Source: a virus
Virus record (IMG/VR): IMGVR_UViG_3300037468_000088
Location: 1-24,595 of that record
DNA length: 24,595 nt
Reading direction: 5' to 3' (one strand)
How positions within the stretch are numbered: the first letter of the stretch is position 1; each line of letters opens with the position of its first letter. Shown here piece after piece: positions 9,767 to 24,485 of the stretch. Both the position numbers and the translations under genes were made by a program. Under the pieces are notes generated by a model. It did no database searches. It saw only the letters and a list, made by a program, of their open reading frames with translations, and was not told the DNA's origin.

Positions 9767-9924
9767 CTCCCCGTACCCGCGTCAGGAACGAGGTCTGGTG
9801 AGGCGGCGTTCGCCAAGACGATAAGAGATACCCACCCGGAGCGGAAGTGGCCGCTAACGGGACTGGCCGTTCGCCCGCCAGGAACGATGCGTAGTCCGTT
9901 CACCATGTCAGTTGGTGTCCCCAT
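9763..9924 (-). CDS. Small 53-residue protein, function unknown
   Basis: An ATG at 9924 is preceded by an excellent ribosome site (GAGGGGG, four bases of spacer), and the stop at 9763 is coupled to the head-closure start. The gene overlaps the end of the GT-B-like gene by 17 bases. The product begins MGTPTDMVNGLRIVPGGRT and ends in GTGR, with one hydrophobic stretch (WVSLIVLANAA). The open frame runs back to 10017 but that part lies inside the neighbour. Location and coupling suggest a small head-tail or host-interaction protein; no family was recognised. Confidence 0.65.
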   Translation of the reverse strand: MGTPTDMVNGLRIVPGGRTASPVSGHFRSGWVSLIVLANAASPDLVPDAGTGR

Positions 9925-10891
9925 ACAACCCCCTCGTTTCGGACCACTCAGCGACGAGTGTAGCGGCAGTGAGTGCGCCGTCAACGGACGGGATGACGGC
10001 GTCGCAGACGTCCTCACGGTGCCGTTTCTCCGCCTCCGATTCCGCTCCGGACAGCAGTCGGTCGGCCAGTTCCATCAGTTCCTGGGGTCCGTCGACTGCC
10101 GCCGGAATGTGTGACCAGAACCGTAGCCCATGCGTCACTTCGCGCCGGAACCACGGCGCATTGAGCGCGATGACCGGACGGCTCCGACCCATCTCCCACA
10201 GCGTGGATGAGTTGTCCACGGCGTAGACGGTGGCCGCTCGGGCGGCGTCTCGGACGTCCTCCAGGAACGGGATACCGAAGCGGGAGGACACCGAGCGGAC
10301 CATCCCGACAGCCCGTGGGTGGGCGTGGAGCGCGACCGGGAACCGCTGCGCCAGGAGCGGCAACACGTCGAGGTAGTGGGCCAGGGCCGACCGCTGCTCC
10401 GGGATGGCCCCGGACCAATGGAAGGACACGACGAGGAGGGGCAGGCGCGGGTCCTCGGGAGGGGTGAGGACCCGCGTCGCCCCGATGACGTGGACGGGGA
10501 CGGATGGGTACCGCTCCCTCCACATCTCGGCGGCATAGCCGTTGGGCGCGAGGATGATGCCCACCCCATCGCGCCCGTCCCCTCCCGCGTATGCCGCGCT
10601 CCGCCGGGTCCTCGGGTCACCCGCATAGGACTGACCGCACCCATGCTCCATGTACGCCAGCGCCGGTGCCTTTCTCCTCCTGGCGCTGGCGTGGTCCTTC
10701 ATGGAGGCCGTCAGCGTGGGCCGCTGCAGCCTCCCCTCCGGGACCTCCGCCCGGACTCCCATCCCATCCAGGGCAGGGAGGAGGCGGCGGTCTGTGACGT
10801 AGAACGTTCCACGTGGAACGTTCGTGGCGAGATAGACCGGGACGAGGTGATGGGCGTACTGGACCTCCGAAACGAGGCAGTCGAACGGCAT
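9908..10891 (-). CDS. GT-B-type transferase resembling CDP-glycerol glycerophosphotransferases
   Basis: The 327-residue product starts at the first ATG after an in-frame stop, behind an 88-bp gap. The sequence contains MEHGCGQSY (residues 81-89), VVSFHWSG (near 155), HAHPR (189-193) and, near the C-terminus, DNSSTLWEMG followed by RPVIALNAPWFR (about 226-250). That pattern, a His-Gly turn, a HxHP motif and a D-SS-xx-E segment before P-V-x-L, is the nucleotide-binding half of GT-B enzymes such as CDP-glycerol:poly(glycerophosphate) transferases. The substrate is unknown. Next to a SAM methyltransferase and a GT2/GT32 fusion, the best reading is a virion-protein or cell-surface glycan enzyme. 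No signal peptide or membrane helix is seen, so it should be cytoplasmic. Confidence 0.65.
   Translation of the reverse strand: MPFDCLVSEVQYAHHLVPVYLATNVPRGTFYVTDRRLLPALDGMGVRAEVPEGRLQRPTLTASMKDHASARRRKAPALAYMEHGCGQSYAGDPRTRRSAAYAGGDGRDGVGIILAPNGYAAEMWRERYPSVPVHVIGATRVLTPPEDPRLPLLVVSFHWSGAIPEQRSALAHYLDVLPLLAQRFPVALHAHPRAVGMVRSVSSRFGIPFLEDVRDAARAATVYAVDNSSTLWEMGRSRPVIALNAPWFRREVTHGLRFWSHIPAAVDGPQELMELADRLLSGAESEAEKRHREDVCDAVIPSVDGALTAATLVAEWSETRGLYGDTN
10802..10823. promoter_or_regulatory. parS-like perfect palindrome
   Basis: This is a perfect 22-bp palindrome. Its inner 14 bases, GTTCCACGTGGAAC (10806-10819), match every fixed position of the corresponding part of the bacterial parS consensus TGTTNCACGTGNAACA; only the outermost T/A pair of that 16-mer is replaced (C/G). 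It lies inside the GT-B-like gene and encodes residues around NVPRGTF. ParB-family proteins with an HTH domain bind such sites; binding here is inferred. Confidence 0.65.
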
Positions 10892-10979
10892 ATCAAGGAT
10901 GCCCGTCGCTACTCATCGCCAAACCCGGAGTGATAGATGGACCCGGAATGTGATGAGAACGGCCCGTGGTGGCGGGGAC

Positions 10980-11594
10980 TCACGGCGTCAGTCTCCAGAC
11001 GCCCAACCACTTCGCCCTATCCCGGAGGACAGAACCGGTGTCGTAGTCCCAGCCATCCGGCTGTCTCCGGGAGGGAGAGGGAAGGTCGAACGGCGGCGCT
11101 GTGAGGTCCGGGGAGTAGCAACCGCCCGTCTGGATGTCGGTGTTCAGCGGGTCGTGGTGCCGCTCGGATGGAGCGGTGTAAGTGGACGCGATGAGCCACC
11201 TTGCGTCGCTCCCAGCGATGGCCCGGATGAGCGCCTTGCCATCTCGGAACGAGAGGTGCTGGAGGACGTCCCGAACGAACACGACGCCCCATCGTCCAGG
11301 CGGCAGTCCGTCCCGTGCATCCCACACCGCGTACTTGCGGTCAGGGTGGAACGAGCGGGCGCGCTCGATAGCCGTCGGGGATACGTCGATGCCCGTGTAG
11401 TCGGGGAGGTCAGGCATCCACAGGTTATCCCCACAGCCGACATCCAGGACGCTGCGGATACCGAGTTCGTCGATGGTGTGCACGAGCCAATCGGAGATGC
11501 GCCGCGTTGGAGCAAGGCCGCTCCCTGGACCCGACAGCGACTCCTTGCCGTTCCAGCCGTTGCGCTGGTAGATACCTTCGAACACCTCAGTCAT
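10980..11594 (-). CDS. SAM-dependent class I methyltransferase
   Basis: I use the ATG at 11594, which overlaps the stop of the fused glycosyltransferase (ATGA). The 204-residue product has a clear Rossmann methyltransferase core: SVLDVGCGD (motif I, about residues 48-56), YTGIDVSPTAIERA (motif II region, about 66-78) and FVRDVLQHLS near 105-114. The N-terminal stretch with GPGSGLAPTRRISDWL is shared by a group of phage/bacterial methyltransferases found in sugar-modifying clusters. It may methylate a glycan added by the neighbouring transferases or a small molecule; protein or DNA methylation is not excluded. It lacks a DNA-methylase DPPY/NPPY-type motif. Confidence 0.82.
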   Translation of the reverse strand: MTEVFEGIYQRNGWNGKESLSGPGSGLAPTRRISDWLVHTIDELGIRSVLDVGCGDNLWMPDLPDYTGIDVSPTAIERARSFHPDRKYAVWDARDGLPPGRWGVVFVRDVLQHLSFRDGKALIRAIAGSDARWLIASTYTAPSERHHDPLNTDIQTGGCYSPDLTAPPFDLPSPSRRQPDGWDYDTGSVLRDRAKWLGVWRLTP

Positions 11595-12919
11595 GCGGGT
11601 ACCTTCCTCCGCTCCTCCGGGAGCCACGAGCCCCAATAGTGATGCCGAGCGAACTCCCAGGGAGATGCCGGCGCGCTCATCTTCCTGTCGCGCTCCGGGT
11701 CGCGGTAATGGACCGCATAGAACGCGGACGGCGGGAGGAGGAGGACGTCGGTACGACCGGTCAGCACCTTCGTCGTCGCTCCTGGTCCTGCGTCCCACAC
11801 GGACCGCTTCATGGAGCGCAGGGCCAGCGTCAGCATCTCGCTGATGAGTGGGTGTCCAGGACGTGCGCCGATGACGGCATTGGGTACGACTTGCTCGTCC
11901 TCCCACGCCGCGAACACCTGTGCCGACAGCAGCGGCTCAAGTGACCGGAAGGGCTCCATATCCTGGTCGACGTAGACGCCACCCCAGCGCAGCAGCGCCT
12001 CTAATCGCACGAGGTCTGCCAGTTGCGCCCCACATGACACCTTGCTCCAGGACGGAGCGGTCAGCGGCCATTCCGCCGGGTCCAGCGGGTCGCGGTGGGT
12101 GAGCAGTTGCCACGAGGGATGGAGAGTGGCGAACCGACCCCACCATACCTCGGCGGTCGCGTTGATGTGGGCCGGGACCACGCGATGCAGGATGCGCGGG
12201 ATGCTCTCGGTTGGAAGGGCGGCGACCTCTCGGCCCTCGACCACGAGCCGCTGGATGGTGGCCCGGTCGGCGGCGCTGTAACTCCACGCCTGCTCGTACA
12301 GGTGCAGGCGTGCCATGTTCCGGCGATGGGATGGGCTACCGTGCTTCTCACCCTTCGGGCTGTCGTGGTAGAGGTGCCATACCTCGCCAGGAAGCCGCTC
12401 CAACTTCCGGCCCGCGATGACCTCACAGGCCACAGCGAACGCGCTGTCCTCCATGCCCCAGCCCTGGAACCCCTCGTCGAACCCACCGATGTCATCCCAC
12501 AGCGTGCGCGGGATGACGATGACGGATGAGTGCTGGTCGCGGAACTGCCGAGCGATGTAGCCCTTCCACGAGCCACGGTCGCCGGCGAGGATGCGCTTGG
12601 TCCCGTGGCCGTTGAGGTTGTAGCGCACAGAGAACGGGACGACCATCTGCCCCGTCTCGACGGCGATGGGGATTGCCTGTCGGACTCTCGCTGGCTCGGT
12701 CAGGACATCGCTGTCGATGAGAACGGCGACGTCCCACTCCCCCGCGAGCCGGGATGCCTCGTTGACGGCGGCGCTCCGGTTGAACAGGCCGATGTCGTGG
12801 TGGCCTTCGTAGATGGGCCAATCCGGGAACTGCTCGCGCCACCACGGCTTGCAGAAGTCCCACAGCGCGTCCCTGTCAGGGAAGCCCGCCCGACGCGGCA
12901 CCAGGATGACGATGTTCAC
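11591..12919 (-). CDS. Two-domain glycosyltransferase (GT2/galactosyltransferase-like plus GT32-like)
   Basis: I start at the GTG at 12919, coupled to the stop of the upstream gene (GTGA); the product is 442 residues. The N-terminal domain (about 1-220) is a GT-A fold with a DSD metal site (69-71) and GGFDEGFQGWGMED (145-158), the acceptor/catalytic motif of the GT2/Glyco_transf_7C group. The C-terminal domain (about 235-440) is GT32-like: IPRILHRVV (240-248), then WGGVYVDQDMEPFRSLE with the DQD site at 318-320. Two complete transferase active sites in one chain suggest sequential sugar addition to one acceptor. The gene follows three large fibre-like proteins and precedes the methyltransferase. 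The sugars and the acceptor are unknown. Confidence 0.85.
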   Translation of the reverse strand: MNIVILVPRRAGFPDRDALWDFCKPWWREQFPDWPIYEGHHDIGLFNRSAAVNEASRLAGEWDVAVLIDSDVLTEPARVRQAIPIAVETGQMVVPFSVRYNLNGHGTKRILAGDRGSWKGYIARQFRDQHSSVIVIPRTLWDDIGGFDEGFQGWGMEDSAFAVACEVIAGRKLERLPGEVWHLYHDSPKGEKHGSPSHRRNMARLHLYEQAWSYSAADRATIQRLVVEGREVAALPTESIPRILHRVVPAHINATAEVWWGRFATLHPSWQLLTHRDPLDPAEWPLTAPSWSKVSCGAQLADLVRLEALLRWGGVYVDQDMEPFRSLEPLLSAQVFAAWEDEQVVPNAVIGARPGHPLISEMLTLALRSMKRSVWDAGPGATTKVLTGRTDVLLLPPSAFYAVHYRDPERDRKMSAPASPWEFARHHYWGSWLPEERRKVPA

Positions 12920-13266
12920 GAACCGCTGTCCCTCGTCACGTCGGCCTTGACCATGAACACACCCTCGTCCACGGTCCACACGGAGTCACCCAGCAGCACC
13001 TCGAGGTCGAACCGATAGTCGCCCAGGAGGTCGCTCGTATCCGCCGGTGCTAGGTCCATGTCGAGCAGGCCGTCAACCGGGTCGCCGTAGGCCGATAGCG
13101 CATCGCTCGGTCCCTCTACGACAAGGACCGCATCCTCGTCATCCACGTTGCGTCGAACGGTGAATGTGGCGAGGAAGTTGGTGAGGTCGAGCGGCGCACT
13201 GGCGCTATCGACACAGGTGAACCGGAAGGGGTTGGAGTCCCCTCGCTTGGCGCGGAGCGTGCTCAT
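12916..13266 (-). CDS. BppU-N-like / small beta-sandwich virion protein
   Basis: The ATG at 13266 overlaps the stop of the repeat protein (ATGA), giving 116 residues. The pattern RGDSNPFRFTCVDSASAPLDLT near the N-terminus (given here in part: RGDSNPFRF and APLDLTNF), a central strand ATFTVRR, and a C-terminal DYRFDLEV...VWTVDEGVFMVKADVT match the outline of the BppU N-terminal domain family, in which 'rgD..f.....d....pvDLtg' opens and 'G.Y.yDl.v.d.......G.f.v..DvT' closes the fold. In lactococcal phages such domains attach receptor-binding proteins to the virion. Here the gene lies between the 20-residue repeat protein and the glycosyltransferase, so it may anchor a surface fibre. The assignment is by pattern only. 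Confidence 0.65.
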   Translation of the reverse strand: MSTLRAKRGDSNPFRFTCVDSASAPLDLTNFLATFTVRRNVDDEDAVLVVEGPSDALSAYGDPVDGLLDMDLAPADTSDLLGDYRFDLEVLLGDSVWTVDEGVFMVKADVTRDSGS

Positions 13267-14438
13267 CGTGACCTCCCTGACGCGGATGGGTGCCGACTGC
13301 TGACGGTAGCGGATGCGCCCTTGGTCATGGCGGTCGCCCTGGGCTTGGCGCTCGTCATGCTCGCGGCTGGACGGAGCCCGCGGGCGTAGGCGCTCGGATG
13401 GAGCGAGGAGGCAGTCGCGCTCGCGCTGTCCGGGAGGTTGACCCACAGTCGGGCCACGCCACCCCCCGTCGCCAGGATGGACGCCCAGCGCATCGTCGTC
13501 TGCTGGAGGAGAGCCGAGCCGCCTCCGGTCCCGACGAGAGCGTTGCCATGTGCCCCGGTCCAGGAGATAGAGGAGATGCCACCCCCCGTCGCGCCCAGGG
13601 ATGCCCGCCTGCCGCCGATGCCCGTCGTGACGACGATGCCGCCACCAGTCGAGGTTACCGATGAGCGGCGACCAGAACGGCTCGTGACGACGGCGACTCC
13701 GCCTCCAGTCGCGGATACCGTCCCCTCGGCATGGGGAACGTCCCCGCCGATGGCGTAGGAGATGACCGCGATGCCTCCGCCGGTCGCTGCGAGTGAGGAG
13801 GCTCGGGTGGTGGTGTGGGTCGTCGTTGCCGTGCCGCTGCCGGTGGCCGTGACAGCGGAGCGCCGTCCTGCGCTCCGGAGGAGAACGGAGGTGCCTCCTC
13901 CTGTGGCCGTGATGGTGCCGCTTCGGGAGGGCGCCGAGGCCAGGGTCGCCGCGCCGCTGGCGGTCGCGGAGATGGAGGAAGCGCGGTCGCTCCGAGCGGT
14001 GACGACCGCGCTTCCTCCGCCTGTCGCCGTGACCGCTGATGCGCCCTGCTTCCTGGAGGAGAGGGCAGCCGTGCCGCTGGCGGTCGCCGTGACCGCTGAT
14101 GCCCCTCCCTTCCTGGAGGAGAGGACCGCGCTACCGCTGCCGGTGGCGGTGATGGCAGCGCGGCCCACACGACCGGAGGCCACCGTCGCCACGCCGCCGC
14201 CGGTCGCGGTCAGGGTGGCGGTATGCACCCCCGCACTCGTGAGAACGGCAACACCACCACCCGTCGTGGAGAGCGCGCCCTGCCCGTTCTTCTGTTGCGT
14301 GATGACCGCGACACCACCACCAGTTGCGGTCAGGGTGGCAGTGACGCCACCGGACCCGCTATCGGCGTCATGCCACCAGTGGTCCCACGCTTGCCCGCGT
14401 AGGTCGAAGTCACCCCACTTGGCGTTCAGGCGGGCCAT
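13263..14438 (-). CDS. Repeat-built fibre-like protein, fifteen 20-residue repeats
   Basis: The 391-residue product starts at the ATG at 14438, four bases after the upstream stop. The first 30 residues (MARLNAKWGDFDLRGQAWDHWW and on) contain several Trp and likely form an attachment cap. Residues 32-333 are fifteen tandem repeats of about 20 residues with consensus R-A-S-(A/S)-(V/I/L)-T-A-T-G-G-G-x-A-V-(V/L)-T plus four variable residues. The last 58 residues are Ser/Ala/Arg-rich and basic. The period, the small residues and the Gly-Gly-Gly turns suggest a beta-solenoid or beta-spiral shaft, and the many Ser and Thr offer O-glycosylation sites. No enzyme motif is present. I do not know a named family; a virion-surface fibre is inferred from composition and neighbours. 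Confidence 0.75.
   Translation of the reverse strand: MARLNAKWGDFDLRGQAWDHWWHDADSGSGGVTATLTATGGGVAVITQQKNGQGALSTTGGGVAVLTSAGVHTATLTATGGGVATVASGRVGRAAITATGSGSAVLSSRKGGASAVTATASGTAALSSRKQGASAVTATGGGSAVVTARSDRASSISATASGAATLASAPSRSGTITATGGGTSVLLRSAGRRSAVTATGSGTATTTHTTTRASSLAATGGGIAVISYAIGGDVPHAEGTVSATGGGVAVVTSRSGRRSSVTSTGGGIVVTTGIGGRRASLGATGGGISSISWTGAHGNALVGTGGGSALLQQTTMRWASILATGGGVARLWVNLPDSASATASSLHPSAYARGLRPAASMTSAKPRATAMTKGASATVSSRHPSASGRSR
13440..14345 (-). repeat. Fifteen tandem repeats of about 60 bp
   Basis: The DNA period is about 60 bp in step with the 20-residue protein repeat. Some units stay nearly identical: GTCGCCGTGACCGCTGAT recurs exactly 60 bp apart at 14023-14040 and 14083-14100 (plus-strand reading), each followed by a CTTCCTGGAGGAGAG block. 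Others have diverged, so expansion looks both old and recent. Confidence 0.85.
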
Positions 14439-14442
14439 GCCG

Positions 14443-15525
14443 CTACCCGATGAACTCGATGACCATGACGATGCCCGTCATCCCGGCCCCGCCAGCCACG
14501 CCGGTCGCCGTGGTCAGGTCGTGCCCGCCAGCACCGCCAGCACCGTAGGCGAGGCCAGCGCCACCGGCAGCCGTCGCGTCGGTCGTGAGGCTCGCCTGAG
14601 CAGCGGCGTTCGCACGCCCTCCGTCGCCCCAGAACGAGGCCCCGCCCCTGCCGCTGTGCGCCCACACGAGGTCGGTCGTGCCGTCGATGGAGCCAGCGAT
14701 ACCGGGCTGACCCGAACCTCCGGTGACGTTGACGATGCCGCCAGTCGGAACCCCACCGAGCCCACCGGCTGTCGTCTGCGCGTCCTGCGTGGTCGAACCC
14801 GAGCCGGTGCCCAGCGCACCGCCCGTGCCAACGAGGTCGGTCGTGTTCCACGTCGTATTGCCGCCCGCGGTGCCGTTGCCGCCCGCGTTGCTCCCAGCGG
14901 ACCCGGCAGAGCCGACGCTGAACGCCTTGGACGTCCCGACCTGTGCGGCGGTGTAGAAGCCGATGGCCGTGCCACCCGCACCGCCACCTCCACCAACACC
15001 CACGTCGGCAGAGCCGCCCGCGGAGGTGTCCGCCCCTCCTCCTCCTCCGCCTCCACCCGTGGCGACGACGATGCACGCCTTCATGCCCGCTGTCGGGGTA
15101 TAGGTGCCCGCGCCCGCGTTGATGAACCGCTGCACCTCGATGCGCTGGAACGCCAGTCGCTTGACCACCTTGCCGTCGCTGCTGTAGATGCGCCAGCCGT
15201 TCTCGTAGATGGCGCAGCCGCCCTTCGGCAGCGTGATGACCGGCGTGATGGCGTTCGCTGCAGCGGTGCCGCCGACGAACAACTGGAACGTCGAGGCGTT
15301 GGCGGCGTCCGTGTTGACGACAGAGATGGACTTCACCATCGTCGGGCCGTCTGCTGTCGCGGTGTAGATGGTCGCCGCTGCCGCTGCGAGTTGCTGCTGG
15401 TCGCGGGTGAACGTCTCCGCTCCGGTCGAGGTGTTCAGTTCCAGGAGATGCAGCGTGCAAGTGACTTCGTTCGCCCCGCTCGGAGCGGACCCGGCGATGG
15501 TGTCACTCGCCGGTATGACAATCAT
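14443..15525 (-). CDS. Glycine-rich fibre-like protein, paralogue 2
   Basis: The 360-residue product starts at the ATG at 15525, which overlaps the stop of its paralogue (TGATG). Residues 1-145 form a beta-rich head with TIAGSAPSGANEVTC, ATIYTATADGPT and FQLFVGGTAAANAITPV. From about residue 155 to the end the chain is glycine-rich: an unbroken Gly8 run, VGVGGGGGAGG, then scattered GG-x-GG turns, closing with GMTGIVMVIEFIG. This recalls the polyglycine-helix (PGII) tip domains of phage adhesins and the glycine-rich C-termini of many tail fibres, which end in a hydrophobic VxVIE strand. It is closely similar to the upstream gene except around residues 105-135, where the two differ. It may be a surface adhesin or head/neck fibre. 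Confidence 0.75.
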   Translation of the reverse strand: MIVIPASDTIAGSAPSGANEVTCTLHLLELNTSTGAETFTRDQQQLAAAAATIYTATADGPTMVKSISVVNTDAANASTFQLFVGGTAAANAITPVITLPKGGCAIYENGWRIYSSDGKVVKRLAFQRIEVQRFINAGAGTYTPTAGMKACIVVATGGGGGGGGADTSAGGSADVGVGGGGGAGGTAIGFYTAAQVGTSKAFSVGSAGSAGSNAGGNGTAGGNTTWNTTDLVGTGGALGTGSGSTTQDAQTTAGGLGGVPTGGIVNVTGGSGQPGIAGSIDGTTDLVWAHSGRGGASFWGDGGRANAAAQASLTTDATAAGGAGLAYGAGGAGGHDLTTATGVAGGAGMTGIVMVIEFIG

Positions 15526-16607
15526 CAGATGTACTCGATGACGACGACGCAGCCGCTCATCCCCGTGCCACCGACCGCGCCGGTCGCAGAGGCCGTGCTG
15601 ACTGCGCCGCTGCCGCCAGCACCATAGGCGAGGCCGTTGCCTCCGGCGGTATCGACAGCGTTCGTCAGCGTGTTGGAGGCAGTAGCGACGTTCAGACCAC
15701 CGCCACCCCAGAACGATGCTCCGCCCTTGCCGCTCTTGCCAAAGATGAGGTCGATGGTGCCGTCCGCGCTACCGGCCACACCGGGCTCTCCAGAGCCGCC
15801 CGTGATGTTGATGGTGCCACCCGTGGGAACGCCGCCGAGCCCACCAGCCGTCGCGGATACGTCCACGGCAGATGTACCCGAGCCCGTGCCGAGCGCCCCG
15901 CCTGTCGCAACGAGGGTCGTGGTATCCCACGTCGTATTGCCGCCCGCTCCACCGTTGCCGCCCGCGTTGGAGCCAGCCGAGCCGACCGCGCCGATGGAGA
16001 GCGCCTTGCTTGCTCCGACCTGACCAGCCGTGAAGAACGCGATGCACGTCCCGCCCGCTCCGCCGCCGCCGCCCACGCCCACGTCACCAGAAGCCGCCGC
16101 CGTATCGGCACCACCGCCGCCGCCTCCTCCTCCGGTGGCGATGACCATGCAGTACTTCATACCGGCGGTCGGCGTATAGGTCGCCGCTCCGGGGGTCACG
16201 AACGCCTGGATGTTGATGCGACCGAAGCCGGGGCCGTCGAGGTGCTGGCCCATGCTGTCGAACGTCGTCCAGCCCTCGCCATCCTCGTAGACAGCCATCC
16301 CTCCAGCGGGGATGGTGAACACGGGCGTGATGGCGTTGGCCGCTGCCGTGCCGCCGACAAAGAGTTGGAACGTGCTGTCGTTGGCCGTGTCGGTATTGAC
16401 GACATGGATGCTTCGCACGAACGTCGGACCATTGGCCGTCGCTGTGTAGATGGTCGCGGCAGACGAGGCGAGTTGCTGCTGGTCCTTCGTGTAGGTTTCG
16501 GCGTTCGTGCCCGTGTTCAGTTCCATCAGGAACAGCGTGCAGGTGACCTCGCTGGCACCAGTCGCCGCAACGCCAGCGATGGTGTCATTCGCTGGGATGG
16601 TGAGCAT
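15525..16607 (-). CDS. Glycine-rich fibre-like protein, paralogue 1
   Basis: The 360-residue product starts at the ATG at 16607, three bases after the stop of the upstream small protein. It shares nearly all landmarks with the next gene: TIAGVAATGASEVTC, QQQLASSAATIYTAT, FQLFVGGTAAANAITPV, YTPTAGMK, the Gly8 run (residues 159-166), SAGSNAGGNG and YGAGGSG, ending GMSGCVVVIEYI. The region around residues 105-135 differs, reading EDGEGWTTFDSMGQHLDGPG here. An Ala/Gly/Ser/Thr-rich C-terminal half is typical of polyglycine-type adhesin tips. The tandem pair probably arose by duplication and may form a heteromeric or alternative surface fibre. No catalytic motif is seen. Confidence 0.75.
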   Translation of the reverse strand: MLTIPANDTIAGVAATGASEVTCTLFLMELNTGTNAETYTKDQQQLASSAATIYTATANGPTFVRSIHVVNTDTANDSTFQLFVGGTAAANAITPVFTIPAGGMAVYEDGEGWTTFDSMGQHLDGPGFGRINIQAFVTPGAATYTPTAGMKYCMVIATGGGGGGGGADTAAASGDVGVGGGGGAGGTCIAFFTAGQVGASKALSIGAVGSAGSNAGGNGGAGGNTTWDTTTLVATGGALGTGSGTSAVDVSATAGGLGGVPTGGTINITGGSGEPGVAGSADGTIDLIFGKSGKGGASFWGGGGLNVATASNTLTNAVDTAGGNGLAYGAGGSGAVSTASATGAVGGTGMSGCVVVIEYI

Positions 16608-20670: not shown

Positions 20671-22326
20671 CTAGAACCCTCTCGCCACTCGGGGCTTGCG
20701 GATATACGGCTTGGGCGGCTCGGTGTTGGCGATGGCGACAGCCATCACGAGGGCGATGGCTGAATGGTTGGGTCGCCGCTTGCCTTTCGTCACCTTCATG
20801 CCTCGTTCGGTCAGGAGCGCCGTCGTGTCTGCGACGTGCCTTGCGAGGATACCGTCCCCGTCATGGACGAGGCGACCAGTCGTCGCAAGTTCGTAGGTCA
20901 TCGTTGATGCCGGCCCCATCGTAGCCGCCGTCTGCCCCATCGTCACCATGTTCAGCCCTTCCTGCTCCAGCGACTCGGCGCTCTCCGTGAACGCATAGGG
21001 GTCGAACGCGAACGCGGGTCCTGGGATGTTCCGCTTCGTGGATGGGTCGCGCACCATCGACGCCGGGAACTTCTCCTTCAGTTCCCGGAGGGTGGCCCGC
21101 ATGGCGACGATGGACACCCGCCCCGTGGCTGTCTCCGGATGGAAGTGCCTCGCCCTCACCACGAGCCGTTCTCCCTGCCGCTGTGCCACGACCACGGCAG
21201 CGCCCTCGGACATAGCCGCTTTCTCGATACCGACGCCCACAGGCAGGGACTCATCCAGTCCGTGCCAGTCGTCCTCTCCGGGCGTTCCTTCCTGGAGCGC
21301 GCCCCATGCGCTGTCCGGGAGCCACCCTTCCTCCGTACCCATAATCTGGTTCAGGTGATAGATGCGCCACTCCAGCATCCGCCCCTTCTGCCGCAGTTTG
21401 CCGTACTCCCGGCGCAGCGCCTCCTCCGTGAGCCAGGACGCGGGATTGACGCCGACCCATACCCTCGGGTCATCGGCATCGGCGTCTCGGGAGGCGCCGT
21501 ACCAGTAGATGAGGACACCGTTCGGCTTGTCCCGATAGATGGTCAGGTAGGGGCTCGCCTGCTCCAGTTCTCCTGGGCCGTCGAACATCTGCCCGTAGAG
21601 GTCGCGGAGAAGGTTCTCCTCGTCCGGACCCGCCGTGGTAATCCACAGCGTAAGCGGCTGTTCCCTCGCGCCACCGCCCGTCGTCAGGGCCGTGAACAGG
21701 TCGGCATCCTTGTGGGCATGGACCTCGTCGATGATGGACAGGGAGGGGTTGAGCCCGTGCTGTAGCGCACCGTCGGAGGAGAGCGCACGCATGATGCCGC
21801 CGTTCCTCACTCCCTCGATAAGGTACTTCTGGACCTTGACGTAGGGCGTCAGGCGGGGCGAGCGCCGCGCCATCCGGAGCGACTGCCCCATGACGATGCC
21901 GGCCTGCTGCTGGGCCGCTGCGCCGACATATATCTCGGGCTCGTTCTCGCCGTCAGCGACCAGCCCGTAGAGTCCGAACGCGGACGCCTTCGTGGACTTC
22001 CCGTTCTTCCTGGGCAGGCCCAGGCCGACCTCCTGATAGATGCGAAGCCCGGTGTTCGGGTCCTTCTCCAGCGCCTCCCACCAGAACCGCCGCTGCCAGT
22101 CCTCCCACACCACAGGCTGCCCCGACCAGCGGCCCTTCGTGTGGCGAAGGTAGTGCTCGCAGAAGGCGGCGAAGCGGGGGCCTCCGGTGAGCAAGTCGGG
22201 CGTCATCGGACCCTGTACCATCCCGTCCGCAGGGAGCGCCCATGCGTCAATGCACCGGCACCCTGGACCCCGGCTGGCAGGGCTGGTGCCGGCCCATGAG
22301 TCGGCCCCGGACTTCGGGTGCCACAC
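20671..22326 (-). CDS. Terminase large subunit (Terminase_1 family)
   Basis: I keep the GTG at 22326 (551 residues); an internal ATG at residue 36 is an alternative. The ATPase domain has Walker A GLPRKNGKST (103-112), Walker B LSIIDEVHAH (196-205, with D200-E201) and coupling motif ITTAGP (229-234). The N-terminal part reads FCEHYLRHTKGRWSGQPVVWEDWQ, typical of the family. In the C-terminal nuclease half, the first acidic position is in GVGIEKA (Glu368 instead of the usual Asp), AFDPYAF (D442) is kept, and the third ('..iDa.vAl.mA') reads PNHSAIALVMA with Asn520-His521. The enzyme packages DNA through the portal; how it cuts with this altered centre is unclear. Confidence 0.92.
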   Translation of the reverse strand: MWHPKSGADSWAGTSPASRGPGCRCIDAWALPADGMVQGPMTPDLLTGGPRFAAFCEHYLRHTKGRWSGQPVVWEDWQRRFWWEALEKDPNTGLRIYQEVGLGLPRKNGKSTKASAFGLYGLVADGENEPEIYVGAAAQQQAGIVMGQSLRMARRSPRLTPYVKVQKYLIEGVRNGGIMRALSSDGALQHGLNPSLSIIDEVHAHKDADLFTALTTGGGAREQPLTLWITTAGPDEENLLRDLYGQMFDGPGELEQASPYLTIYRDKPNGVLIYWYGASRDADADDPRVWVGVNPASWLTEEALRREYGKLRQKGRMLEWRIYHLNQIMGTEEGWLPDSAWGALQEGTPGEDDWHGLDESLPVGVGIEKAAMSEGAAVVVAQRQGERLVVRARHFHPETATGRVSIVAMRATLRELKEKFPASMVRDPSTKRNIPGPAFAFDPYAFTESAESLEQEGLNMVTMGQTAATMGPASTMTYELATTGRLVHDGDGILARHVADTTALLTERGMKVTKGKRRPNHSAIALVMAVAIANTEPPKPYIRKPRVARGF

Positions 22327-22344: not shown

Positions 22345-22833
22345 TTACTCCCCGACGACACGCAGTCGCGCCGGCCCCAGCACCATATCCATGTCCGTCA
22401 GGGAAGTGCCCATGTCCACGCGGAGCCCAGCGCGGGCGGCGGGCGACAGGCCGAGTTCCCTGCCCAGGAGGCGGGCCGCTTCCCGCTCCTCCCGGACGAT
22501 GCGGGTCAGGGGGTTGACGATGAGTTCCCGCCCTCGCGCTCCTCGGATGAGCGAGCCGGAGCCGAACAGTAGTCGGACGTTCCGGAGGTAGAGGGCTTCC
22601 GCTTCGCAGTACATCCGGAGGCAGTCACGGTCTGCCGCCACGATGACACCGGTGCCGCGCATGGAGCGGATGACGTGCTGCCAGACAGCCTGCGCCTCCT
22701 CGTCCATATCGGGAGGCATCTCGGGGTCCTCCTGGGAGGGGATTGGTGCCTCGTAGTTCACCTGTGACGGCCGCGTCTCACCCTTGGCAATCCTGATTGC
22801 CGGAGGCGTCGGGGCCGGCCCTCGCCTACCCAT
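22345..22833 (-). CDS. Terminase small subunit, P27 family
   Basis: I use the ATG at 22833 (162 residues), which overlaps the end of the glycosyltransferase gene; the frame extends to 22872 but that part is in its neighbour. The start MGRRGPAPTPPAIRIAKGE followed by RPSQVNYEAPIPS is the signature opening of the P27/phage_terminase_small family ('rGRkP.P...k.l.G......r.n..eP.p'). A helix with EEAQAVWQHVIRSM and an Arg-rich middle (LTRIVREEREAARLLGRE) follow. The protein recognises phage DNA for packaging with the adjacent large subunit. Its 18-bp spacing to the large-subunit start is normal. Confidence 0.9.
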   Translation of the reverse strand: MGRRGPAPTPPAIRIAKGETRPSQVNYEAPIPSQEDPEMPPDMDEEAQAVWQHVIRSMRGTGVIVAADRDCLRMYCEAEALYLRNVRLLFGSGSLIRGARGRELIVNPLTRIVREEREAARLLGRELGLSPAARAGLRVDMGTSLTDMDMVLGPARLRVVGE

Positions 22834-23707
22834 CCTTGCGGAACTCCGGGGCCAGTATCTTTGGCACCGCATGGGGCCAGTCGATGTGGTGGTGGATGCG
22901 GCGCTCGCTCATCCCGATGCTCCGGACGGAGACGAACGAGGGGCACATCATCACGGTGTAGAACGACTTGACGTAGGTGCCGCTGTCCAGGTACTCCTCG
23001 GTCAGCCCGCCGCGCTGCTGCTGCGTCTGCGTCTGTGAGAGCGACGCCTGTGAGACGGTCATAAACACCTCGCCCCTGGAACCCAGGACACAGTATGAGC
23101 TCACGTCCTCGTTCGTGGCACCCATGAACGTGACCGGCCTGTCCGTCCGGACGAAGAAGGAGTTCATCGCCTTGCGCTTCCAGCCCAGGCGGGCGACGTG
23201 GGATGCGACCCCTCCAATCATCTCGCCGCCCTGGGCGAACGCCACCGTCAATGCCCCGGTGTCCTCCAGGAGAGAGAGCATCGAGGCGACGACCTCGTCC
23301 ATGTTCCGGATTGACGAGGCCCGCAACTGCCGCAGTTCCCAGTCCTCCGTGGCATCAGGGACGCGGGAGCGATGGGAGAAGTTGCTGTAGTCGTCATCCA
23401 ACTGGACGAAGTAGTCGAGCCCCAAGTCACGGGCGATGGCGAAGGATGCGTTCCTTGCGTAGACGACTAGGCCCCGCTTGCCCTGATTGTCCCCGACATC
23501 GGTCCCCTTCACGGCCTCCGACTTGGAGAACTGGACGACCTCATCGCCATACCGCTGCCGATACTCGTCGGCGGTCGGGTCCTCGTCGTCTATGACGATG
23601 ACGATGCGCCCGGTGTACCCGCACTTCCGCAGCGTCTTGTAGGTGATGACCTTGTCCGGGCGTCCGTGCGTGAGGATGAGCGCGGCGAACTTGGAGCGGT
23701 CACGCAT
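22826..23707 (-). CDS. TAGT-like glycosyltransferase (TET/JBP-associated family)
   Basis: Two starts are possible (ATG at 23713 and 23707); the second has the better-spaced GAGGG and overlaps the upstream stop. The 293-residue product has ILTHGRPDKVITYKTLRKCG (10-29), GYTGRIVIVIDDED (30-43), EYRQRYGDEVVQFSK, VVYARNASFAIARDLG, FVQLDDDYSNF (DDD 104-106), RKAMNSFFVRTDRP, GATNEDVSSY and EEYLDSGTYVKSFY. This order matches phage proteins I recognise as the TAGT group, GT-A-like enzymes found with TET/JBP dioxygenases and thought to glycosylate oxidised DNA bases. No TET/JBP gene is in this window. Position between ParB-N and packaging genes fits a DNA-modification role. The family call is from memory. 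Confidence 0.75.
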   Translation of the reverse strand: MRDRSKFAALILTHGRPDKVITYKTLRKCGYTGRIVIVIDDEDPTADEYRQRYGDEVVQFSKSEAVKGTDVGDNQGKRGLVVYARNASFAIARDLGLDYFVQLDDDYSNFSHRSRVPDATEDWELRQLRASSIRNMDEVVASMLSLLEDTGALTVAFAQGGEMIGGVASHVARLGWKRKAMNSFFVRTDRPVTFMGATNEDVSSYCVLGSRGEVFMTVSQASLSQTQTQQQRGGLTEEYLDSGTYVKSFYTVMMCPSFVSVRSIGMSERRIHHHIDWPHAVPKILAPEFRKDG

Positions 23708-24485
23708 CCTCATCGCCCTCGTCGTCCTGCTCCGCCAGGGAGGACATCGTCTCGGTGAACTTGAGGTAGCCGTCCCGGATGGCGTCCCCGATGTCGATGA
23801 TGACGAGCGCGGACTGCTCCATGAGTCGCTGGACCTTCGCGTCTGCGTGGGCGTAGAACTCCGCAATCTTGGCGTAGTCGAACACCGTGTGCCGGGAGGC
23901 AGCGGCCAGGAGGAACGAGCGGGTGCCCTCGTCGATGTCGGCGGACATGATGGATGCCCGGAGCGTGTTCGTCTTGCCCTCGTCGTAGAGGTCCGGGAGG
24001 GGCGGGCGCTCTCCGGTCGGCTCGTATCGGGGCGTCGCCACCGTCCGCGTGTACAGGTCCCTGGGGTCCTTCGCCAGCCGTGCCAGGAGGTCGGCGAGCG
24101 CAGCGTTGTCGACGCTCACGCCCTCCAGGAGAGCGGCCAGTTGCTCATCGCTCTTGGTCGCCATCGCCCCTATCGGGTCCAGCGTGGCGAGGACGATGCG
24201 CTCCTCCTCCTCGCTCAGTTCGACGTAGATGACGGGGACGGTCGGTGCGCCGGCAGAGATGGCTTCCTCGATACGGAGGTGCCCATCCACGACGTGTCCG
24301 GTGGTCGTGTTGACGATGACCGACTGGACCCATCCGACCTCGGAGAGCGACCCCCGGATGGCGTCCCGCTGCCGCCCAGGATGCGCCCGCCAGTTGAGGG
24401 GGTTGGCGAGGAGTTGGGTCGGGTCCTCCTCCCCGTGCCCGGTGATGCGGGTCTTCCAGGGAGTCCGCGGTGCCTTCTGCTTCAT
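23700..24485 (-). CDS. ParB N-terminal (ParB/Srx-like) domain protein
   Basis: The 261-residue product starts at an ATG with GGAAGGGTGGAG just upstream. The first 120 or so residues are a ParB-N fold: LLANPLNWRAHP, a helix DAIRGSLSEVGWVQSVIVN, then TTGHVVDGHLRIEEAISAGA (61-80; VDGHLR replaces the usual NG-HR box) and VPVIYVELSEEEERIVLATLD. The C-terminal half has no recognisable helix-turn-helix and reads RHTVFDYAKIAEFYAHA, then LMEQSALVIIDIGDAI; this tail is familiar from phage ParB-N proteins near DNA-modification and packaging genes. Such proteins may act as CTP/ATP-dependent nucleases or adaptors rather than chromosome-segregation ParB. It is the first gene of the operon visible here. Confidence 0.85.
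   Translation of the reverse strand: MKQKAPRTPWKTRITGHGEEDPTQLLANPLNWRAHPGRQRDAIRGSLSEVGWVQSVIVNTTTGHVVDGHLRIEEAISAGAPTVPVIYVELSEEEERIVLATLDPIGAMATKSDEQLAALLEGVSVDNAALADLLARLAKDPRDLYTRTVATPRYEPTGERPPLPDLYDEGKTNTLRASIMSADIDEGTRSFLLAAASRHTVFDYAKIAEFYAHADAKVQRLMEQSALVIIDIGDAIRDGYLKFTETMSSLAEQDDEGDEDA

Follow-up and report, generated by a model that had tools for sequence, protein, structure and literature searches.

The window, by which we mean the whole stretch of DNA analysed, is an entire virus record of 24,595 bp and represents a linear virus fragment. At its right end the minus strand carries, in this order, a ParB-like gene, a TAGT glycosyltransferase gene, and the genes for the small (TerS) and large (TerL) terminase subunits, portal, scaffold and major capsid. 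An earlier note had located the transferase gene between ParB-N and the terminase genes, and profile searches confirm this position, with TerS, TerL and portal coming next. The product of the ParB-like gene is called the adaptor below, and its carboxyl terminal domain the C-domain. The features are as follows.

23700..24485, minus strand: adaptor gene (ParB-N plus C-domain, 261 aa), phrog_620; overlaps the TAGT gene by 14 bp
24147..24443, minus strand: ParB/Srx-fold N-domain of the adaptor (residues ~15–113), proposed DNA tether; 6sdk match and profile match to solved ParB/Noc
23718..24053, minus strand: C-domain of the adaptor (residues ~145–256), helical, of no known family; obligate TAGT partner
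22826..23713, minus strand: TAGT glycosyltransferase (295 aa from ATG 23713), PF20691, 105.7 bits
22345..22872, minus strand: TerS (Terminase_4), PF05119, 7.9e-15
20671..22326, minus strand: TerL, PF03354, 3.7e-21

The adaptor gene starts 110 bp from the contig end. Its homologue in Lactobacillus phage c5 begins at base 90 of the genome, where cos is annotated at bases 1–11, and the records of Nocardia phage NTR1 and mycobacteriophage Nigel open with the corresponding ParB gene.

TAGT matches Pfam PF20691 over residues 13–237 with an E value of 4.1e-30, and its score of 105.7 bits against a curated cut-off of 27.5 bits bears out the family assignment made earlier. The gene also matches phrog_842 at 3e-62. 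Its start is ATG 23713, with GAGGG ahead of it; a second ATG lies at 23707. An alignment of 122 homologues shows R19, D46, R88, D108–D109 and D204 to be invariant (numbering of P0001, which begins one codon before ATG 23713), residues compatible with an active GT-A enzyme. The AlphaFold model (pLDDT 93, pTM 0.91) matched GT-A structures and displays the DxD-type aspartates and the conserved acidic residue of that fold; D108, D109 and D204 are also found in T6.

The adaptor matches phrog_620, 'ParB-like partition protein', over almost its full length (1.2e-21), and no match to Pfam ParB_N reached E 0.01. Its N-terminal half has the ParB fold. The best PDB match is 6sdk, ParB with CDP (Z 13.5); Noc, PadC and sulfiredoxin are also matched, and the profile of the adaptor family matches solved ParB/Noc at 7e-11. 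In the AlphaFold model a ParB/Srx N-domain is set apart from a helical C-domain of about 110 residues, which belongs to no known family and found nothing above noise in a structural search of the PDB (Z about 3). At a level of at least 90%, 27 of 106 columns are conserved in the C-domain versus 4 of 99 in ParB-N; Y145, Y154, R198 and G239 are invariant, and H199, E223 and D231 nearly so.

Stenotrophomonas and Xanthomonas phages encode proteins whose N-domain is 55–57% identical to the ParB-N of the window; their annotations read DNA methylase, DNA methyl transferase or putative sulfiredoxin. The CTP-binding motifs (GERRxRA, ENLQR) are kept only in part in the adaptor family, with GHxR in place of GERR and an ADN-like motif; judged from these motifs, CTP-dependent, clamp-like sliding may occur and is unproven. 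The adaptor shares the ParB-N fold with chromosomal and plasmid ParB, a CTPase clamp, whereas chromosomal ParB has GERR where the adaptor has GHxR, and HTH and dimerisation domains where the adaptor has a C-domain without a PDB match. A plain plasmid-style partition protein was rejected because TAGT always adjoins the adaptor gene and the C-terminal half is, by sequence, another conserved domain.

Two other regions of the window, both on the minus strand, may be described here. Among the head-tail genes, nt 9908–12979 encode a two-domain glycosyltransferase (Glyco_transf_7C and Gly_transf_sug DXD), a class I methyltransferase and a 327-residue protein without a family; this cluster possibly serves virion-surface or capsule-type decoration, unrelated to TAGT. 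Nucleotides 13263–16607 encode a 391-residue protein rich in degenerate TATGGG(V)A-type repeats and, after it, two glycine-rich paralogues in tandem, each of 360 residues. Pfam gave no match to the repeat protein or to the one paralogue searched.

Pairing of the adaptor with TAGT and exchange of its N-terminus

Loci were gathered separately by TAGT, by the ParB gene and by the C-domain. Within the present branch of TAGT, to which the counts apply (and not to T6-like members) since recruitment searches return the nearest relatives, all 158 loci recruited by the adaptor sequence contain TAGT, and 129 of the 132 recruited by TAGT contain the C-domain, the remaining three beginning inside the pair. 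With all 158 loci paired, chance adjacency was dropped. No C-domain lies near the T6-like TAGT genes. A tblastn search located TAGT in 36 phage records. The gene ahead of it is ParB-like, by annotation or profile, in c5, phi jlb1, HHTV-2, NTR1, a Rac-type E. coli prophage and a Porphyromonas phage, and the ParB–TAGT order is kept even in the last at 25% identity. The partner of TAGT is the "ParB" gene, via its C-domain, and not TET.

The correlation of distance matrices (mirror-tree) was 0.28 between TAGT and C-domain and 0.26 between TAGT and ParB-N; it is uninformative as to co-evolution. At one locus (L057, 4434–6846) two complete pairs of C-domain and TAGT are arranged in tandem, the first divergent, each transferase having its own partner. 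The literature searched contained no link between ParB and TAGT, and the C-domain, the clamp motif and the tether exchange described below were not met in it; earlier comparative surveys of base modification may already contain the adjacency.

The C-domain does not always follow a ParB-N. Among 262 distinct C-domain ORFs, ParB-N is found on 167 and is missing on 90. The latter, standalone adaptors open with MKQxNLFG, MFKQPTLDIF, MNIAKQASLFG and similar tails, and most of the 90 begin Q..LF. The bacterial sliding-clamp motif is QxxLF. After removal of similar tails, 32 of 45 standalone tails carry the clamp motif, versus one of 136 ParB-type linkers at the same place; shuffling gave a mean of 2.9 and a maximum of 10. 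A QxxLF-type motif in a flexible tail characterises most of the standalone adaptors and does not concern the adaptor in the window.

The genomic surroundings differ accordingly. The pair is seen beside DnaN, PolA and primase genes at standalone loci, which carry replication genes; DnaN lies within 3.5 kb at 11 of 90 standalone versus none of 167 ParB-type loci (p 6e-6). Packaging genes are nearby at 97 of 106 ParB-type loci, versus 21 of 51 standalone loci (p 3e-11). The TAGT tree (FastTree) requires 12 tether changes, at least seven of them forced by well-supported branches. The core of C-domain and TAGT thus persists as a unit through exchanges of the tether.

Occurrence and constraint in E. 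coli

The pair is intact or near-intact (at least 80% of the query) in 885 of 5,426 complete E. coli genomes, about one in six. The copy analysed at full length belongs to a Rac-type prophage, and only 254 bp of the pair are left in K-12, a natural deletion. In one pairwise comparison between two E. coli copies, the adaptor gave a dN/dS of 0.115 and TAGT one of 0.123, so that the computation shows purifying selection on both genes. With this ratio of about 0.12 and the catalytic residues kept, a decayed gene was dropped from consideration.

Just upstream of the module in E. coli 357900 (L308, 22–1156) lie genes that, by annotation only, encode an enterotoxin A family protein and an enterotoxin. 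The L. delbrueckii phages LL-Ku, Ld17 and Ld25A have TAGT matches in pieces or as a short remnant; in LL-Ku only part of TAGT aligns, as two pieces. Given this broken TAGT, the module looks dispensable, and these phages offer a natural comparison with c5.

Searches for an oxidising or methylating partner

TAGT enzymes have been described as partners of TET/JBP dioxygenases, and the earlier note expected such a partner to lie outside the window or to be replaced by another route. It had seen no dioxygenase or DNA methylase within the window; profile searches of the 24.6-kb record agree, finding no TET, thymidylate-synthase-type hydroxymethylase, C5-methylase, 2OG-Fe oxygenase (PF13640) or N4/N6 methylase. 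The idea of a missing TET/JBP partner was not supported. TET/JBP was matched neither in the window nor in 42 related phage records, complete or partial; TET was likewise missing from five other short relatives and from another 22 records or genomes, 20 of which are bacterial genomes carrying the pair. As positive control, the search gave a match in phage Nigel at 4e-8, below the curated cut-off; no TAGT is found in Nigel. None of the 296 genomes in the phylum of an Acidimicrobiaceae locus, meant as a control, gave a TET match.

PF00303 (dCMP/dUMP hydroxymethylase) and PF00145 (C5-methylase) are absent from the window and 35 relatives apart from T6 and pv27; PF00303 was matched in T6 and Vibrio phage pv27 only. 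PF13640 is absent from 26 records. Many of the relatives' records are fragments; the strongest negatives for an oxidising partner therefore come from c5, phi jlb1, HHTV-2 and NTR1, whose genomes are described as complete. In the phage collection, TET phages and TAGT phages have different host genera.

No third gene regularly accompanies the module at 203 loci when packaging and replication genes are set aside. Among the commonest extras are a phosphatase/cytidylyltransferase gene, seen at 11 of the 203 loci, and a radical SAM gene, seen at 7. The former, a His-phosphatase plus cytidylyltransferase, lies mostly between adaptor and TAGT (L125 805–1779, L129, L114, L117, L137, L138, L123, L170, L173), and at L139 (5914–7641) it is in one open frame with the adaptor. 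It suggests a nucleotide-activated donor, a special sugar or polyol. The radical SAM gene is found near the module at L143, L183, L186, L187, L188, L197 and L201 and is enriched at tandem-TAGT loci (4 of 7, p 6e-4).

Probable target and proposed mode of action of the module

ParB-N genes stand before DNA-base enzyme genes in other phages as well. In Nigel-like phages of Mycobacterium, Gordonia and Microbacterium, a ParB-N protein gene directly precedes TET. The Nigel gp1 and gp2 genes overlap by 14 bp and are followed by TerS and TerL, as in the window; unlike in the window, the enzyme is TET/JBP, and gp1 has no relation to the C-domain in its C-terminal half. In Arthrobacter phage Sonali the ParB-N gene directly precedes that of the DNA-base transglycosylase DpdA, and preQ0 genes are present; this system differs in its 7-deazaguanine chemistry and has no C-domain. 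In Stenotrophomonas phage QH16, the ParB-N that is 55–57% identical to that of the window continues into the first part of a methylase profile. As to naming, Nigel gp2 (L306, 776–1744) is 'queuine tRNA-ribosyltransferase' in RefSeq and matches Pfam Tet_JBP below the cut-off, and its relatives elsewhere are labelled oxidoreductase or Tet-like J-binding protein; its PHROG label, phrog_6059, is probably wrong.

It was reported that the TAGT of T6 glucosylates DNA (PMC13216743). This T6/T2 enzyme, beta-glucosyl-HMC-alpha-glucosyltransferase, shares with the window TAGT the family PF20691, a predicted GT-A fold and aligned D108, D109 and D204, at about 13% identity in that alignment. It differs in having no C-domain partner near, in lying beside dCMP hydroxymethylase and in placing a second glucose onto a pre-glucosylated base. 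The alpha-glucosyltransferase of T4 is likened to the module because it glucosylates DNA and binds gp45, the T4 sliding clamp (PMC13216743). However, its fold is GT-B, it contacts the clamp directly instead of through an adaptor, and it acts on hmC.

DNA is the probable target of the module. The earlier note had read the locus as a sign of hypermodified phage DNA: the TAGT family stands, as does a link of ParB-N to DNA modification through its pairing with TET in Nigel and DpdA in Sonali, whereas hypermodification itself is plausible but unproven. A literature search on the DNA of HHTV-2 or Rac gave nothing relevant, and no module-bearing phage with analysed DNA was found.

We favour, with some reserve, a self-contained, DNA-targeted and TET-independent module of an adaptor and a GT-A transferase. 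The obligate pairing suggests that the C-domain holds TAGT, and the N-terminus of the adaptor would tie the pair to DNA, by a ParB-fold domain in the window and by a putative clamp-binding peptide in other phages. TAGT would then glycosylate phage DNA, drawing on a nucleotide-sugar donor. The form with the ParB tether would glycosylate finished DNA around packaging, and the clamp form would act during replication. Against this explanation, the acceptor is unexplained without any hydroxymethyl base in sight. A more specific proposal, which we put forward tentatively and with less than even confidence, is that phage DNA is glycosylated by the pair with no known enzyme oxidising a base beforehand. 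The sugar would go to a canonical base, to a backbone group, or to an acceptor that the C-domain produces, and the tether would decide between packaging and replication-fork timing.

On an alternative reading, the acceptor would be a hydroxymethyl base supplied by a TET/JBP dioxygenase or hydroxymethylase encoded elsewhere in the genome, as the TAGT family name and literature imply. A thymidylate-synthase-family gene does occur alongside TAGT in the genomes of T6 and pv27, the known dCMP hydroxymethylase being among such genes in T6, and the window is only a fragment. Yet TET is missing from the window, the 42 phage records and the 20 bacterial genomes while the Nigel control is positive, PF00303 and PF00145 are missing from the window and from all 35 relatives other than pv27 and T6, and TET and TAGT phages have separate host genera in the phage collection, which makes this route improbable. 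The acceptor could instead be made within the pair, the C-domain being an enzyme (e.g. a base hydroxylase) and the pair a two-step pathway rather than an adaptor and an enzyme. Its stronger conservation than ParB-N (27/106 versus 4/99 columns), the four invariant and three near-invariant residues, and its absence from T6-like TAGT loci, where hmC is supplied, would fit an enzyme. A small all-helical domain without a fold match or an obvious metal or cofactor motif fits poorly, as does the F that replaces the near-invariant H in the second copy of the L057 tandem, and we consider it quite unlikely that the C-domain is the enzyme making the acceptor.

The acceptor may also be a protein, since TAGT-like GREB1 was reported to be a protein O-GlcNAc transferase (PMC12645433), and the E. 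coli TAGT homologue is named 'GREB1-related protein' in RefSeq. The adaptor would then present a terminase, capsid, tail or host DNA-bound factor for glycosylation, and TAGT indeed lies among packaging genes. However, the pair also neighbours DnaN, PolA and primase genes, where the adaptor bears a clamp motif; enzymes acting on DNA bases are paired with ParB-N proteins elsewhere; and no one structural protein is common to all contexts. A protein target is thus unlikely.

The favoured module of adaptor and transferase bears on a wider set of phages. A TAGT homologue without alpha- or beta-glucosyltransferase was reported in 288 of 753 phage genomes in a 2026 paper that left its function open (PMC13216743). 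For at least part of these 288 genomes the adaptor offers a concrete handle, namely an obligate partner, a testable recruitment rule and a question about the acceptor. The E. coli copies and the natural deletion in K-12 make the chemistry accessible in a laboratory strain. The exchange between ParB-N and clamp peptide suggests a general role of ParB-N domains beside phage base-modifying enzymes.
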